Source of the DNA: Helicobacteraceae bacterium
GTDB taxonomy: Bacteria; Campylobacterota; Campylobacteria; Campylobacterales; Sulfurimonadaceae
DNA length: 64,000 bases
Reading direction: 5' to 3'
Assembly: GCA_027038835.1 (NCBI GenBank)
Contig: JALWGC010000016.1
Coordinates: 1-64,000 of the forward strand
Made by a program: the position numbers and the translations under genes
Shown: positions 16,688-24,145 of the stretch, piece after piece
Layout: each line of letters starts with the position of its first letter
Numbering within the stretch: the first letter of the stretch is position 1
The notes under the pieces: model-generated
Told to the model about the DNA's origin: nothing
Databases searched by the model: none
The model's input: only the letters and a program-made list of their open reading frames with translations

Positions 16688-16716
16688 TTGACATTTAATT
16701 CTGTTTGTAGTATAAT
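16688..16716 (+). promoter_or_regulatory. Consensus sigma70 promoter
   Basis: TTGACA (16688-16693), a 17-base spacer and TATAAT (16711-16716): exact consensus hexamers at ideal spacing, the strongest promoter I see in the window. Transcription should begin near 16723, giving a leader of about 180 bases before the lipoprotein ATG. The leader contains the riboswitch-like fold. Confidence 0.85.
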
Positions 16717-16727
16717 TTTCGTATCGA

Positions 16728-16812
16728 TAAAGGAGAAAAAGCCAAACTCGCCGCGAGGCGGGAACGGAAAGTCATGGGTCTTTGTGCGAAGATTGCCAGA
16801 CTGCCTCTTTGC
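16728..16812 (+). ncRNA. GEMM-like (cyclic-dinucleotide) riboswitch aptamer
   Basis: The leader follows the layout of the GEMM-I aptamer. GCCAAAC is followed by a six-pair stem (16747-16752 with 16757-16762) capped by the GNRA tetraloop GCGA, then AACGGAAAG, where the family reads GACGCAAAG. The second helix is closed by GUC (16771-16773) with GAC (16799-16801) and contains GGUCUU/AAGAUU. The 3' GCCAGACUGCC matches the family's GCCGGGUUGCC. GUC/GAC in place of the usual GCC/GGU is a compensatory change. Several normally fixed bases differ, so the ligand (c-di-GMP, cGAMP, or none) is uncertain. It sits just after a consensus promoter and before an exported lipoprotein. Confidence 0.7.
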
Positions 16813-16844
16813 TATAGAGTTTTTTCTATGCGTCTCCTTTAAAT

Positions 16845-16877
16845 CCGAATATTGCATTGGGAATTTGCAATATCCGG
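16845..16877 (+). promoter_or_regulatory. Hairpin between aptamer and lipoprotein start
   Basis: CCGAATATTGCA (16845-16856) pairs with TGCAATATCCGG (16866-16877) with one mismatch and a nine-base loop. It could be the expression platform of the riboswitch. No T-run follows, so simple intrinsic termination is not obvious. The ribosome site AAAGGACG (16891-16898) lies 13 bases further on. Confidence 0.55.
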
Positions 16878-16903
16878 CTCAAACAACCATAAAGGACGAC
16901 TTC

Positions 16904-18343
16904 ATGCGCACTTTCACATCTTATCTACTCAGAGCACTTTTTGTTTTTTTCATCTCGTTCGGGCTTGCTGGATGCGGCGGCGGTCAAAACGACAACGCAT
17001 ACCAAGACGCTACAAATGAACAAAACGGTAACGGCGACTTCACAAACTACCAACAACCGACAGTTTATTCAGGAAAGTTCATCGACGCACCGGTTAAAGG
17101 TCTTAGGTACAAAACAGCGACACAAAGCGGATACACCGACAAAAAAGGAACATTCAAGTATGAACGAAACGAGTATATTTCGTTCTATCTTGGAAACCTC
17201 TTTTTGGGAAAAGTTCGCGCCAAATCGCTCATAACTCCTTATACGCTTGGAAGGAGCACCCCGTCGGCACCAAACGACAAAACCGTAAATATCGCCGTTT
17301 TGCTGCAAAACTGTAACGGCAACAAAAACGCTACCTACCTCGATGTAAGCGGTTATAGCCACTACAACTTCACGGATGTGGCGCTTGACGATTCTCCACA
17401 AGATTTCATCAACGAACTTGAAAACGCGGGTATTCGCGTAACTATAAACAAAGAAGCGGCACTGAAAAACCTCAACGACGCTTTAGGCTACTCGACCCCA
17501 GACAACGGAAACAACGGAAACAACGGAAACAACGGAAACAACGGAAACAACGGAAACAACGGAAACAACGGAAACAACGGAAACAACGGAAACAACGGAG
17601 ACAACGGAGACAACGGAGACAACGGAGACAACGGAGACAACGGAGACAACGGAGACAACGGAGACAACGGAGACAACGGAGACAACGGAGACAACGGAGA
17701 CAACGGAGACAACGGAGACAACGGAAACAACGGAAACAACGGAAACAACGGAAACAACGGAAACAACGGAAACAACGGAGACAACGGAGATAACGGAGAT
17801 AACGGAGATAACGGGCAAACCGCCTCGGGTGGAGACACCATAGCCGGTATCACCATCCCGCCTATCTCTGCAAAACAGAAAAAAGAGTTTTTAGATGCCG
17901 TCAATGCCGCAAGAGCACAACGACAAGACTGCGGAGTTTACGGTATAAAAGAGCCGGTACCCGCTTTGAAATGGAGCGACAAACTCTACAAAGCCGCTTA
18001 CATCTACAACTACGATATGGTACACGGAGGTGCATGGAACCATGTAGGCTCGAACACCAAATACGACATCGTCGCAAAAGAGAAAAACCTTGGTAAAGGG
18101 AGTAGCATGAGCGATAGAATAAAATTTGTCGGCTACGATTATCGCTATGCGGGTGAAAACATAGCCAAAGGGCAAAGAAGCGTCAAAGAGGTTGTAGATG
18201 GATGGATAGATAGCGATGGACACTGCAAAAATCTAATGAATCCGAATTTTACCGAAATCGGTATGTCTCTGCTTGTAAGCGACGACCCTAACGACAGATA
18301 CCGCAACTACTGGACACAAGATTTCGGTCAGCCTATGCACTAA
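16904..18343 (+). CDS. CAP-domain lipoprotein with Asn-Gly-Asn/Asp repeat stalk
   Basis: 479-residue exported lipoprotein. The signal peptide ends in the lipobox LAGC (Cys24). Residues about 45-110 form a small domain with GKFIDAPVKGLRYKT and SGYTDKKGTFKY, a pattern common in surface proteins of marine bacteria. Residues 201-302 are 34 tripeptides NGN or NGD, a flexible and possibly calcium-binding stalk. Residues about 320-479 are a CAP/SCP domain (LDAVNAARAQRQDCG, then AGENIAKGQRSVKEVVDGWIDSDGHCKNLMNPNFTEIGM). I chose ATG 16904 because AAAGGACG precedes it and the signal peptide starts there. An open frame from 16643 runs through the riboswitch and is not credible. Confidence 0.85.
   Translation: MRTFTSYLLRALFVFFISFGLAGCGGGQNDNAYQDATNEQNGNGDFTNYQQPTVYSGKFIDAPVKGLRYKTATQSGYTDKKGTFKYERNEYISFYLGNLFLGKVRAKSLITPYTLGRSTPSAPNDKTVNIAVLLQNCNGNKNATYLDVSGYSHYNFTDVALDDSPQDFINELENAGIRVTINKEAALKNLNDALGYSTPDNGNNGNNGNNGNNGNNGNNGNNGNNGNNGNNGDNGDNGDNGDNGDNGDNGDNGDNGDNGDNGDNGDNGDNGDNGNNGNNGNNGNNGNNGNNGDNGDNGDNGDNGQTASGGDTIAGITIPPISAKQKKEFLDAVNAARAQRQDCGVYGIKEPVPALKWSDKLYKAAYIYNYDMVHGGAWNHVGSNTKYDIVAKEKNLGKGSSMSDRIKFVGYDYRYAGENIAKGQRSVKEVVDGWIDSDGHCKNLMNPNFTEIGMSLLVSDDPNDRYRNYWTQDFGQPMH
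17504..17809 (+). repeat. 34 tandem nine-base repeats within the CAP lipoprotein gene
   Basis: Unit AACGGAAAC (Asn-Gly-Asn) or AACGGAGAC/AACGGAGAT (Asn-Gly-Asp). The order is one block of GNN type, a long GDN block, a second GNN block and a last GDN block. This pattern points to block duplications. The nine-base period keeps the frame, so copy number can change without inactivating the gene. Confidence 0.97.
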
Positions 18344-18355
18344 ACCCCAAGGGCT

Positions 18356-20893
18356 TTAGCCTAGCGCACTCTCGACCGCGTCGATAATCTCGGCGTAGTT
18401 GAGCTGTTCGCTCATCTCAGAAAGCATGTAGTACAAGCGGGCGTCTTGTTGGCGAATTTTTTCCAAAACCTCTTGCATATCCTCGGCATTTAAAAGCACC
18501 GCTTTGCTTTTTAGCTCTTGCAAAAGCGCTGCATCCAAACGTGCAAGCCTCGTTTCCAACTCTTTTTTATCGACCGATTTTTGTTTGTCGATTTTTTGTT
18601 CGGCATACCGGTAATCAAGTTTGAAAAATCGCCAAAGCAGGTCGTACACCTCATACGCCTGATACGGTTTGACAAGATAAGCATTGACTCCCACTTCTTT
18701 GAGCATCTTTTCGTCTTTTTCCGAAATGCTGGCACTAACGGCGATAATGACGACGTTTTTGTCAAATTCTCTAATCTGTCTGGAAGCTTCTATGCCGTCA
18801 AGTTTCGGCATTTTGATATCCATGAAAACGACATCGAACCTATTTGAGCGAGCGAGCTTAACCCCCTCTTCCCCATCGTATGCGACCATAGCTTTGAATC
18901 CAAGGACATTGAGTATCTCTTGTAGCAGTTTGACGTTGTCTTCTTTGTCTTCGACTATCAAAATACGAAGCTCTTTTGGACGACTTGCAAGCCCTACGAC
19001 CTCTTGCCTTTTCTCTTTCAAAAGGTGCACGCTATCTTGGGTCATACTCTCATCGCACGTTTCGTACGGCAGCTTCACCCAAAACAGACTTCCCTTCCCT
19101 TCTTCGCTTTCTACACCGACACTTCCCCCCATCGCTTCTGCGAACTGTTTGGTTATGGTCAGACCGAGTCCCGTACCCGTAACGGCTGAAGCGCTTCCTA
19201 CTTGCACGAACGGCTCGAAGATTATCTGTTTGTCTTTTTGCGATATCCCTTCCCCTTCGTCTTTGACTTCGATAGCGAACTCTTTTTCATCGAATTCGAC
19301 GGTTATCTCCACGTTACCGAATTTGGAATACTTGATGGCGTTGGAGACGTAGTTCATCAAAATCTGGCGCACTTTTTTCTCATCTATCACTATACACTTT
19401 GGAAGCTCTTTTGGGATGTTGGTCACTATGCTCATCCCCTTCGCTTCGGCTCTGGCGTTGAGAATCGAGACTATCTCGTCCACTACGAACGAAATATTGG
19501 TAGGAACCGGTTCTATGGTGATTTTCCCCGCTTCTATCTTGGCGATATTGAGAATATCGTTGATTAGACTCAACAAAAACGTACCGCTGTTGTAGATGGT
19601 ACGCAAAATCTTCCGCTCGGAGTTCGAAAACGTCTCGTTTTTCATCAACAGTTCCGAGAAACCCAAAATGGCATTGAGCGGAGTTCGTAATTCATGCGAC
19701 ATATTCGCCAAAAAGACCGACTTGGAGCGGTTTGCGTATTCGGCTTCCTCTTTTGCCGCGGCAAGCTCGTCGCTAAGGCGTTTGAACTTTTTCTCATGGA
19801 TATAGAAATAGATAGCGAACAGCAACAGTAAAAGCGCTATTAGCAACGTCAAAAACAGCGTTATTCGCTGCCGCTCGAGCTGAATTTTCTGCTCTTTGGC
19901 TATCGCTTCGGCTTGTTCGATTTTGCGTGTGAGTTCGTGGTATTTCGAAAGTTTCTCTTCAAGCAGGCGATTGTTCTCTTTAATGCGCTCTTTTTGCGCT
20001 CGCAGCATCTCTTGACTCTCTTGGAGTTTCTTTCTCAAAGCTTCGGACTGCTTTTGTAGCGCTTCCTCCTCTTGCGCTTTTTTTTCCAACGCTATTTTGA
20101 GCTCTTCCAAGTTTTGTTTGATGTTTTCTATCTTTTTCTTTTGCTTGGCGAACTCTTTGTTCTTTTGGTTTATCTTTTGTCGCATATGCGCCAAAGAACT
20201 TTTGACTTGTTTGTACTCGTTCTTTTTCTTGCGAATCTCGCTTTGGAGCTTCTCTACCGTTTTTTTGTGCCGTTGCAGCTCTACAAGAAGCTCTCTGTTG
20301 AGTTTTCTGTAACGTTGAAATTTCTTCGCTTCCCGTTTTATCTCCTCGAGCGTGCTTTTATACAGCTTACTCACGCTCACTCCAGACCCCCCGACCAACA
20401 AGATTTCGTCATCGACTTGCAGATGATGCCATCTGATGTTGGCGTCGTTAAGACGTATTTTCACTCTGTGGACTTCATCTTCGTACAAATCGATCATCGC
20501 ATAACGCATACTCGGCGCTTCTATCGTTATAAGTAGCTTTTTATCGGGGAGGGTTTTGTAGATACGTTTCAAATCGTTTTTGTACCCCTCTCCCACCAGC
20601 AGTATGTCGAAAGTTCTGTTTTGGATATCGCCGATACTTGAAAATTTCACAACCTGCAAAGCTCGCTCGCGAATCTCGAGCCCTTTGAGTTTCCTTTTGA
20701 GCGCATCGTAGATTTCGTCGTTTTTGGCCAACACGGCGATAATGAAGTCTCTGTTTCTTTCTTTCGCGCTTTCTTCCCATCGGATATGTTTGCTAAGAAG
20801 ATATGTATATGCGGTTATCACCTCTATTTTGGCGTTTGTATAGGAAAATAGAGTCGAAACGAAAAGAAAAATCAAGAAAAACAAGACGCGCAT
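18356..20893 (-). CDS. Hybrid histidine kinase with periplasmic YfiR-like sensor and receiver domain
   Basis: 845 residues. After a signal peptide, residues about 20-185 resemble the YfiR/DUF4154 family (AYTYLLSKHIRW, DILLVGEG, MIDLYEDEVHRVKIRLNDANIRW, DEILLVGGS), a periplasmic sensor module. A long coiled coil (about 190-340) and one membrane helix (about 348-368) follow. Then come HisKA with phospho-His in FLANMSHELRTPLNAI, an HATPase with DEGEGISQKD and GTGLGLTI, and a receiver domain (VVFMDIKMPKLDG, K in VKPYQ). Start ATG 20893 is preferred because AAAGGG precedes it. ATG 20908 has no ribosome site. The receiver output is probably phosphorelay to another regulator, such as the nearby HD-GYP protein, by inference. 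Confidence 0.88.
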   Translation of the reverse strand: MRVLFFLIFLFVSTLFSYTNAKIEVITAYTYLLSKHIRWEESAKERNRDFIIAVLAKNDEIYDALKRKLKGLEIRERALQVVKFSSIGDIQNRTFDILLVGEGYKNDLKRIYKTLPDKKLLITIEAPSMRYAMIDLYEDEVHRVKIRLNDANIRWHHLQVDDEILLVGGSGVSVSKLYKSTLEEIKREAKKFQRYRKLNRELLVELQRHKKTVEKLQSEIRKKKNEYKQVKSSLAHMRQKINQKNKEFAKQKKKIENIKQNLEELKIALEKKAQEEEALQKQSEALRKKLQESQEMLRAQKERIKENNRLLEEKLSKYHELTRKIEQAEAIAKEQKIQLERQRITLFLTLLIALLLLLFAIYFYIHEKKFKRLSDELAAAKEEAEYANRSKSVFLANMSHELRTPLNAILGFSELLMKNETFSNSERKILRTIYNSGTFLLSLINDILNIAKIEAGKITIEPVPTNISFVVDEIVSILNARAEAKGMSIVTNIPKELPKCIVIDEKKVRQILMNYVSNAIKYSKFGNVEITVEFDEKEFAIEVKDEGEGISQKDKQIIFEPFVQVGSASAVTGTGLGLTITKQFAEAMGGSVGVESEEGKGSLFWVKLPYETCDESMTQDSVHLLKEKRQEVVGLASRPKELRILIVEDKEDNVKLLQEILNVLGFKAMVAYDGEEGVKLARSNRFDVVFMDIKMPKLDGIEASRQIREFDKNVVIIAVSASISEKDEKMLKEVGVNAYLVKPYQAYEVYDLLWRFFKLDYRYAEQKIDKQKSVDKKELETRLARLDAALLQELKSKAVLLNAEDMQEVLEKIRQQDARLYYMLSEMSEQLNYAEIIDAVESALG

Positions 20894-20921
20894 CAACAAC
20901 CCTTTCATCGGTAATGGATCA

Positions 20922-20967
20922 ATTATACACGGTAGTGCTTTTAAATTAAATTAAAATGCGCTATAAT
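20922..20967. promoter_or_regulatory. Divergent -10 boxes between the hybrid kinase and TonB receptor genes
   Basis: Minus-strand TATAAT at 20927-20922 serves the kinase. Plus-strand TATAAT at 20962-20967 serves the receptor. They are 34 bases apart, so the two genes could be co-regulated by one bound factor. No clear -35 elements are visible. Confidence 0.6.
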
Positions 20968-20993
20968 GTATCGAAAACGAACGAAAGGGTACG

Positions 20994-23108
20994 ATGCAAA
21001 AAGGTGTGCTTGGCATCTTGTTGGCTTCATTGCAAATAGTGAGTTTGAACGCGCAGGAGGACTTGCTCAGTCTCGATTTGGAAGACCTTGCGCAAATAAA
21101 GACCGCTAAAGCGTACTCCACCCTTATACGGATCGATAAAAAGTACTCCCCATCGACCATCACCACCATCACCCAAAAGCAGATTCAAGAATCGGGTGCG
21201 AGAACGCTTGACGAACTGCTTGAAATCTACGCGCCCGACATCGCCTACATGTACAAAGTGGAGGGAAATCAACTCGGTATAAACGGTATCATCAGCGACA
21301 GAAACAACAAAGTTCTTATGGTCGTAAACGGCAGAATGCTCAATGTCAAAAGTAGAGACGGCGGTGCCATCACCGAAAGGTTTTTCCCACTTCTTGGCGA
21401 CATCGAAGAGGTGCAAGTCCTAAGCGGTCCGGGTGCTGTCATCTACGGCCCGGGAGCGATTGCGGGGGTTGTTAGCATAACCACTTTCGATGCGAACACG
21501 TTCGAGGGGCTGCAAACCAACGCCGCCGTTGGAGAGGGGGAAGAGTACGGTTATGTCGATATGAAATACGCGCAAAAACTTCTCGATGACATAGGGGTTT
21601 TCGTTTATGCCGGTATCGACAAATACAACGGCATAGACGCCAAAAGAGTAAAAAACAGATTCGCCTTTGACTACCCCGACAAAGATATCCAATCCGATCG
21701 AAATTTTCCTCACCCCACGGTCAATCTCAACGGCTGGTTCAACAAAGGAACGAGAAAGAAACTCCATCTTCAAATCGAAAAAGGGGATTTGGAATTTTGG
21801 AGCAGATTCAGCCAAGATTCACTCGCTACACCGACATACCAGCACTTCTACACTTCCGACAACACTCCTGCAAAACTCCAACATACGGGGATGGAGAGCG
21901 ACCAATGGTGTAGTGTGCTCAACTACAAACAAAGGTTTTCCAAGCTCACTATCGATTATTCGGCGAGCTATCTTCTCTCCGAACTTGAAAAAGACATCAT
22001 CTACTCCGACGAAGGGGTGAAAAAAATCAACGAAGAAAACCTCAACCTAAAAGTGCTACTTACTTACAACCACTCCCATGATATCAGCTACGCTACGGGA
22101 ATCGAGTACACGAAAAACCGCTTTAAAAACTACCAAAACGACATTATGGCTATTTTCAACGCCCCAAAAAGCTGGAATAGCGAGCTCGCTTCGGCGTACG
22201 GGGAAGCGCAAATCGTGTTTTCGGAGCGCTTCATCACCATTTTTGACGGTAGAATCGACAAACACACCTACACCGACCCTCTTTTTTCCGGCAGAATCGC
22301 AGCCATTTACAAAACGACTCAAGAAGAGACCCTAAAACTCAACTTCTCTCGCTCCAACAGACATATAGACGAGGTGGACCTTTATCAGCAAGTCAACGAG
22401 TTTCACAAAACGCCCGACACCGAGTCGATAGAGAGGATGGAGTTCATTTACGACCGAAGCGATACCGAATGGAAAGGCAGCTTCAAAACGACCTACAACA
22501 TCGAAAACGTCGTCGCGTACAATCAGGCGATCAACTCAAGCGAGCTTATAGGCAAAGCGAAGTTCTACACCCTTGAAGGCTCCCTTGGCTATCACGACTC
22601 GAAATTCGACTTCACCCTCTCCCATCTCTACACCAAGCTTGTCGATTTCTCCCTCGCACATGAGCAAATTCCCATCCAAAACGTCTCCGCGAACCCTTAT
22701 GGTTATGGAAACAATCTTGCCAACTGGAACACCAACATCACGAAACTACGCTTCGACTACCAAATCGATAGAAAATGGAAATTTATCAGCTCTTTGAGAG
22801 TTTTTTGGGGATTGGAAGGTGCAAAAGATATGGCAAACTACAACAAAAGCACCCACCAAAGCGACACTTCAGCGCGCTACAAACTCCCCTACTACGACAC
22901 CGGCACCAAAGCGTTTGGAACGAGTGCTTATTTGAATCTTTCACTTAAATACCGGCTCGATGAAAAAACCGTTTTCTATCTACACGGCTACAATCTGCTC
23001 GGACTTGTCGATGAAGAGCTCAACAAACGCAACTATTTCCAAACCTCAAGCAACTACTTCATAGACGAACCCGCCGTTTCGTTTTCTCTAAACTACAAGT
23101 TCTTCTAA
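20994..23108 (+). CDS. TonB-dependent outer-membrane receptor
   Basis: 704 residues: signal peptide, then a TonB-box-like N-terminus (EDLLSLDLEDLAQIKTAKAY), a plug domain (STITTITQKQIQESGARTLDELLEIYAPDI, VMVVNGRMLN, IEEVQVLSGPGAVIYGPGAIAGVVSI) and a beta-barrel ending in the aromatic SLNYKFF. Such receptors import siderophores, cobalamin or other scarce ligands using TonB energy. The substrate is not evident. AAAGGG precedes ATG 20994. It lies between a sensor kinase and an HD-GYP regulator, suggesting that ligand uptake and signalling may be linked. Its 3' end overlaps the HD-GYP gene by four bases on the opposite strand. Confidence 0.9.
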   Translation: MQKGVLGILLASLQIVSLNAQEDLLSLDLEDLAQIKTAKAYSTLIRIDKKYSPSTITTITQKQIQESGARTLDELLEIYAPDIAYMYKVEGNQLGINGIISDRNNKVLMVVNGRMLNVKSRDGGAITERFFPLLGDIEEVQVLSGPGAVIYGPGAIAGVVSITTFDANTFEGLQTNAAVGEGEEYGYVDMKYAQKLLDDIGVFVYAGIDKYNGIDAKRVKNRFAFDYPDKDIQSDRNFPHPTVNLNGWFNKGTRKKLHLQIEKGDLEFWSRFSQDSLATPTYQHFYTSDNTPAKLQHTGMESDQWCSVLNYKQRFSKLTIDYSASYLLSELEKDIIYSDEGVKKINEENLNLKVLLTYNHSHDISYATGIEYTKNRFKNYQNDIMAIFNAPKSWNSELASAYGEAQIVFSERFITIFDGRIDKHTYTDPLFSGRIAAIYKTTQEETLKLNFSRSNRHIDEVDLYQQVNEFHKTPDTESIERMEFIYDRSDTEWKGSFKTTYNIENVVAYNQAINSSELIGKAKFYTLEGSLGYHDSKFDFTLSHLYTKLVDFSLAHEQIPIQNVSANPYGYGNNLANWNTNITKLRFDYQIDRKWKFISSLRVFWGLEGAKDMANYNKSTHQSDTSARYKLPYYDTGTKAFGTSAYLNLSLKYRLDEKTVFYLHGYNLLGLVDEELNKRNYFQTSSNYFIDEPAVSFSLNYKFF

Positions 23109-24145
23109 TCGTCTTTGAGTTTTTCGTAGGTGTTTTGGAACTTTTCGAGATTCGCTTCGAAAAGCTCTATGAGTTTTGGATCGAACATAATCCCTTTTTG
23201 GGAAATTATATACTCAACGGCTTCATCGAAGCTCCACGCTTCCTTGTAGGACCTTTTGTTCGTCAAAGCGTCCAAAACATCCGCTATACACACAATCCGC
23301 CCCTCTATGCTGATCTCTTCCTCTTTGAGCCCATAAGGGTATCCGCTACCGTCCCAGTGTTCGTGGTGCTCTTTTGCGATCACGCCGCACAAACGCAACA
23401 AAGGTTGCTTCGTTTTACTAAAAATCTTGTACCCTATCTCGGCATGGGTTTGCATGATTTTCCATTCTTCCTCGTCAAGTTGCGTCGGCTTGTTCAAGAT
23501 GGCATCGGGAATGGCGACTTTTCCGGCATCGTGAAACGGTGCCGCTTTGTAGATCATCTCCACTTGTTCCTCTTCCAAACCATAAAGTTCGGCAAGTGTT
23601 TTCGCATACGTCGCCACTCGCAAAACGTGCCTTCCGGTGTCGTCATCGCGCGTTTCCATGATTTTACCCAACGTAAGCACCATCTCCTCTTGCGTGGTTT
23701 GTAGTTCGCTGTTGAGCTGTTTTATTTGCGAAACCGCTTCATCGACCCGCTCTTCGAGGCTATGTTGATAGTCGGCTAAGTCGAGATGGTTTTTCACCCG
23801 CGCTATCACCTCTTCGTTGGCGAAGGGTTTTGCTATGAAATCGACTCCACCTTTTCGAAACGCTTCCACTTTCGCTTCGGTATCGCTGTGAGCGCTTATG
23901 AAAATGATGGGAATCGAAGCGCTTTTTTCGTTTCGTTTGAGCCTTGCGGCCACTTCATAGCCACTCATCCCCGGCATCTCGATATCCAGAAGTATCAAAT
24001 CGGGCTTTTTCGCTTCGACGGACGCGAGAGCTATCTCACCGCTCATCGCCATACGTGTTTTATACCCCTTCTTTTTCAAAAAACTGTCTAAAAGTTCCAG
24101 ATTCTCTTTTCGATCATCTACCAATAAAATCTCTTTGTTGTGCAT
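23105..24145 (-). CDS. Response regulator with HD-GYP phosphodiesterase domain
   Basis: 346 residues. The receiver domain has D10/D11, phospho-acceptor D54 (LILLDIEMPG) and K in AKPFAN. A short coiled linker leads to an HD-GYP domain: FHDAGKVAIPDAIL (HD pair with the lid), then EHHEHWDGSGYPYGLKEEEIS, the intact HHExxDGxGYP signature. HD-GYP enzymes hydrolyse c-di-GMP. Receiver phosphorylation probably controls activity. The hybrid kinase at 18.4-20.9 kb is a candidate partner. Because a cyclic-dinucleotide riboswitch lies 6 kb away, the enzyme may change expression of the CAP lipoprotein. That link is inference. Confidence 0.92.
   Translation of the reverse strand: MHNKEILLVDDRKENLELLDSFLKKKGYKTRMAMSGEIALASVEAKKPDLILLDIEMPGMSGYEVAARLKRNEKSASIPIIFISAHSDTEAKVEAFRKGGVDFIAKPFANEEVIARVKNHLDLADYQHSLEERVDEAVSQIKQLNSELQTTQEEMVLTLGKIMETRDDDTGRHVLRVATYAKTLAELYGLEEEQVEMIYKAAPFHDAGKVAIPDAILNKPTQLDEEEWKIMQTHAEIGYKIFSKTKQPLLRLCGVIAKEHHEHWDGSGYPYGLKEEEISIEGRIVCIADVLDALTNKRSYKEAWSFDEAVEYIISQKGIMFDPKLIELFEANLEKFQNTYEKLKDD

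Follow-up and report, generated by a model that had tools for sequence, protein, structure and literature searches.

The leader of a CAP-domain lipoprotein gene in a Helicobacteraceae bacterium (Campylobacterota) probably holds a class I c-di-GMP (GEMM-I) riboswitch of canonical pocket, belonging to a subtype with a C21-G46 base pair and tuning expression of the gene to cellular c-di-GMP; we put the probability of this reading at about 0.9. The aptamer lies on the forward strand at 16732-16809 of the window, the 64,000-nucleotide stretch of DNA that was analysed. It is an additional member of a known riboswitch class, and we infer from its sequence that the ligand is c-di-GMP. A fuller statement, in which the same riboswitch tunes the lipoprotein gene by a translational OFF mechanism, stands at about even odds.

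The leader opens with a sigma-70 promoter (16688-16716, forward strand) that agrees with TTGACA-17-TATAAT at 12 of 12 positions, just as a first-pass annotation of the sequence had claimed, and the aptamer starts 15 bases downstream of the -10 box. The same annotation described a GEMM-like riboswitch with two helices, a GNRA loop and covarying pairs, and proposed a covariance-model search of the leader. The Rfam search bore out this identification: the aptamer scored 64.7 bits with RF03167 (threshold 59) and 56.1 bits with RF01051 (gathering threshold 35), and its E value was 5.3e-13 in the 64-kb window and 4e-15 in the 501-base leader region. No second match at or above any Rfam threshold was found within the 64-kb window. 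The GEMM two-helix arrangement is present together with a GCGA tetraloop. Covariation also supports the assignment, as 97.8% of cells were paired and 17 of 20 pairs had changed on both sides among 107 Campylobacterota matches, a level reached by none of 500 shuffles. Seven class I c-di-GMP aptamer copies occur in the host genome, the window copy included, and all seven exceed the threshold of RF03167, the top-scoring model in the clan.

Ligand recognition in class I aptamers involves G20, A47, A48 and C92, and the conserved set in Vc2 numbering comprises G20, C22, G42, C44, G45, A47-A49 and C92 among others, with positions 21 and 46 excluded (PMC3764141). A model built from the seven genome copies and run on fetched loci gave 188 aligned matches, the window included (171 distinct ones once places fetched twice are removed). 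G20 (16741) and A47 (16768) were invariant across all 188, and C92 (16804) was C in 184; the window copy also has canonical C22, C44, G45, A48 and A49. The first-pass annotation had listed departures at several conserved bases, among them ACGG and a GCCAAAC in place of GCAAAC. The canonical string is in fact GGCAAAC, with no base inserted in the window, and both departures resolve into one compensatory pair swap outside the conserved set, in which G21 has become C (16742) and C46 has become G (16767). What stood of the claim is the replacement of conserved G42 by A (16763), which was seen in the window copy only (1/188). The 21-46 pair was C-G in 184 and G-C in four of the 188 matches, frequencies biased by a sampling that favours C21-G46: the Campylobacterota loci were drawn with an RF03167 search, and the named loci by an exact pattern demanding C21, G46 and A47. 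The C21-G46 subtype is not restricted to the host lineage, with further examples in records named as Desulfovibrio, Methylomonas, Nitrosospira, Thiomicrorhabdus and Sulfurovum.

The departing bases had been taken to suggest a different ligand or an altered affinity. A true ligand variant, either of the Rfam 'GGC' type or cGAMP-like, could account for the loss of conserved G42 and for the fact that the best-scoring Rfam model is RF03167 (c-di-GMP-I-GGC). However, at the A47 column and at pair 21-46, where the window has A and C-G, the RF03167 consensus reads G and G-C. G47 as the mark of the 'GGC' variant is our reading of that model consensus; the column held A in the window and in 188/188 matches, and a search for G47 aptamers in 277 genomes of one class and in viral contigs yielded none that was convincing. 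The cGAMP-sensing GEMM-I variants of Geobacter share the overall fold of c-di-GMP-I aptamers and carry A at position 20, whereas the window and all 188 aligned matches have G20. A new ligand is not indicated because the contact bases G20, A47 and C92 are canonical and the 21/46 swap is compensatory at non-conserved positions; on the pocket bases the different-ligand reading was rejected, and we regard it as highly improbable. Judged by its pocket, the window copy is an ordinary c-di-GMP-I aptamer despite its 'GGC' label, and it matches RF03167 because Rfam membership goes by score. It shares with the RF01051 type example, V. cholerae Vc2, the P2/P3 layout, the GNRA tetraloop, G20/A47/A48/A49/C92, C44, the bulged G83 and a promoter-proximal leader, and differs in having C21-G46 and A42 where Vc2-type aptamers have G21-C46 and the conserved G42. 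A42 concerns a single conserved non-contact base among many, and we do not treat it as excluding RF01051 membership. More broadly, the score-based 'GGC' label of Rfam need not by itself signify an altered pocket.

The enzymes encoded in the host genome point the same way. There are 31 GGDEF and 16 EAL matches, and the specificity position is Asp in the 16 GGDEF domains whose full motif could be read; two divergent GGDEF domains (L293 and L294) have Asn there. Synthases of cGAMP carry Ser or Thr at this position, and neither residue was found in the GGDEF domains read, which argues further against a ligand variant. The Asp residues and the abundance of GGDEF and EAL domains support c-di-GMP as the probable ligand but do not prove it.

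Altered affinity is a different matter, and stays conceivable because only the window copy has A in place of conserved G42; A42 may weaken ligand binding. The same base, and an RF01051 score that is the lowest among the seven genome copies, would also fit a decayed or low-affinity copy that responds poorly to c-di-GMP. We consider this reading unlikely, as the aptamer helices are intact with covariation of the lineage type, the promoter is perfect, and P1 is a contiguous 6-bp helix, compared with 0-3 pairs in the other six copies under the same counting rule.

If the canonical-pocket riboswitch acts through its leader, the anatomy suggests how. The predicted P1 pairs AAGGAG (16730-16735) with CUCUUU (16805-16810). 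Downstream lie a candidate switching strand, GUCUCCUUUA (16832-16841), a stable hairpin (16845-16877, -11.7 kcal/mol) and the Shine-Dalgarno region UAAAGGACGAC (16890-16900), which has AUAAAGGA in common with the P1 5′ strand; all are on the forward strand. A separate 12-base hairpin had earlier been proposed as the switch. This hairpin exists at 16845-16877, but as a switch it was rejected, being unchanged between the two predicted folding states, and structure prediction instead singles out the strand just 5′ of it as the candidate. The last nine bases of that strand (16833-16841) are complementary to 16728-16736, around the P1 5′ strand, while its UCCUUUA is complementary to 16890-16896 in the Shine-Dalgarno region and its GUC pairs with 16898-16900. 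The joint chance of both complementarities in overlap was 0.0046 when the intervening sequence was shuffled, an optimistic figure given that the nine-base and seven-base cut-offs were post hoc.

These pairings suggest a translational OFF switch. Bound ligand would hold P1 together, and with P1 formed the switching strand would be available to cover the Shine-Dalgarno site. When no ligand is bound, the strand could pair with the P1 5′ strand at 16728-16736, and the resulting alternative helix would leave the Shine-Dalgarno site freer. Sequential folding of the growing RNA predicted P1 first, then the helix 16728-16736/16833-16841, and finally P1 together with 16832-16841/16890-16900. In predicted ensembles, the unpaired probability of the Shine-Dalgarno site was 0.00 with the aptamer forced and 0.43 with the alternative helix forced. 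The covered state is the predicted minimum even in the absence of ligand, and a kinetic switch must therefore be assumed. Taken by itself, the window leader reached only p = 0.08 in a duplex-energy test with shuffled controls, and 0.068 when foreign 5′ strands served as the comparison. On these predictions, translational OFF control is evenly poised between being right and wrong.

Other modes of control by a c-di-GMP aptamer would be an ON switch, or transcription termination or Rho, and together we hold these to be possible, with the balance somewhat against them. In V. cholerae, Vc1 lies upstream of gbpA, which encodes a surface-binding protein, and is an ON switch (PMC4744006). Like the window aptamer, Vc1 is a class I c-di-GMP riboswitch with a secreted or surface protein as its target, but its sense is ON where that of the window leader is predicted to be OFF; the modelled leader anatomy favours a covered Shine-Dalgarno site once P1 has formed. 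Termination could make use of a U6 run at 16820-16825. However, only about four pairs can be counted by eye in the hairpin preceding this run, and no terminator-like site was found on the forward strand of the leader.

Across the lineage, the Shine-Dalgarno effect in 68 leaders (0.104) was no larger than in shuffled leaders (0.081 +/- 0.029), and for this reason the covering mechanism is proposed, with modest confidence, for the window copy alone. Complementarity to P1 was significant overall in a swap control (z = -4.8), but the signal was subset-driven, as the best 5% held 16% of copies. A lineage-wide anti-Shine-Dalgarno switch was rejected on both counts. More speculatively, the P1 5′ strand might serve in the host genome as a Shine-Dalgarno mimic, one pyrimidine-rich strand toggling between aptamer and ribosome site, with c-di-GMP switching collagen-like CAP lipoproteins and A42 retuning the affinity of the window copy; as a whole this picture is rather doubtful.

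The target gene (16904-18343, forward strand) is, as first annotated, that of a CAP-domain lipoprotein (PF00188, E 9e-18), and is the sole CAP match in the host genome. Its 479-residue product has a lipobox, an N-terminal domain, a collagen-like NGN/NGD tract and a C-terminal CAP domain (residues 330-474). The N-terminal domain is common to another aptamer-linked lipoprotein (31% identity). The collagen-like tract is encoded by 35 copies of a 9-bp tandem repeat (17500-17814, 98% match); 9 being a multiple of 3, tract length could vary without frameshift. The lipoprotein of a sister copy (L001) is likewise collagen-like. Genes with possible c-di-GMP links adjoin the target at 18356-24145: a YfiR/HmsC-like hybrid histidine kinase (18356-20908, reverse strand), a TonB-plug receptor (20994-23108, forward strand) and a response regulator whose HD domain is similar to HD-GYP (23105-24145, reverse strand). 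Elsewhere in the window, the ORF at 13679-13951 matches a toxin-antitoxin toxin family, ParE (PF05016, E 1.7e-11).

By UvrB, the host has its kin among Campylobacterota: the protein shares 83% identity with its counterpart in a genome from the same family, 70-71% with those in two Sulfurovum records and 67% with that of a Helicobacter. CAP genes were found in 21 of the 30 aptamer-bearing relatives searched. Among 30 CAP loci from these relatives, seven CAP genes in seven genomes lie immediately downstream of an aptamer, and one further locus does no more than overlap one of these clusters. The relatives' aptamers precede other surface, pilus and chemotaxis genes as well: downstream of 98 aptamer matches, with gene starts set by an uncurated scoring rule, the genes encoded PAS (9), CAP (8), PilJ (7), cadherin-like and Ig-like domains. 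Tandem same-strand aptamers, at most about 200 bases apart, occur in several relatives, at loci L019, L024, L037, L173, L187, L189, L203, L252 and L265, and a divergent pair about 170 bases apart occurs at L018:1247-1593, one member of which reads toward a CAP lipoprotein. No description of these riboswitches in Campylobacterota was found in the literature searched. The present analysis makes it likely that c-di-GMP controls a collagen-like CAP lipoprotein in this phylum, and in several relatives it ties CAP proteins to the regulon of c-di-GMP.
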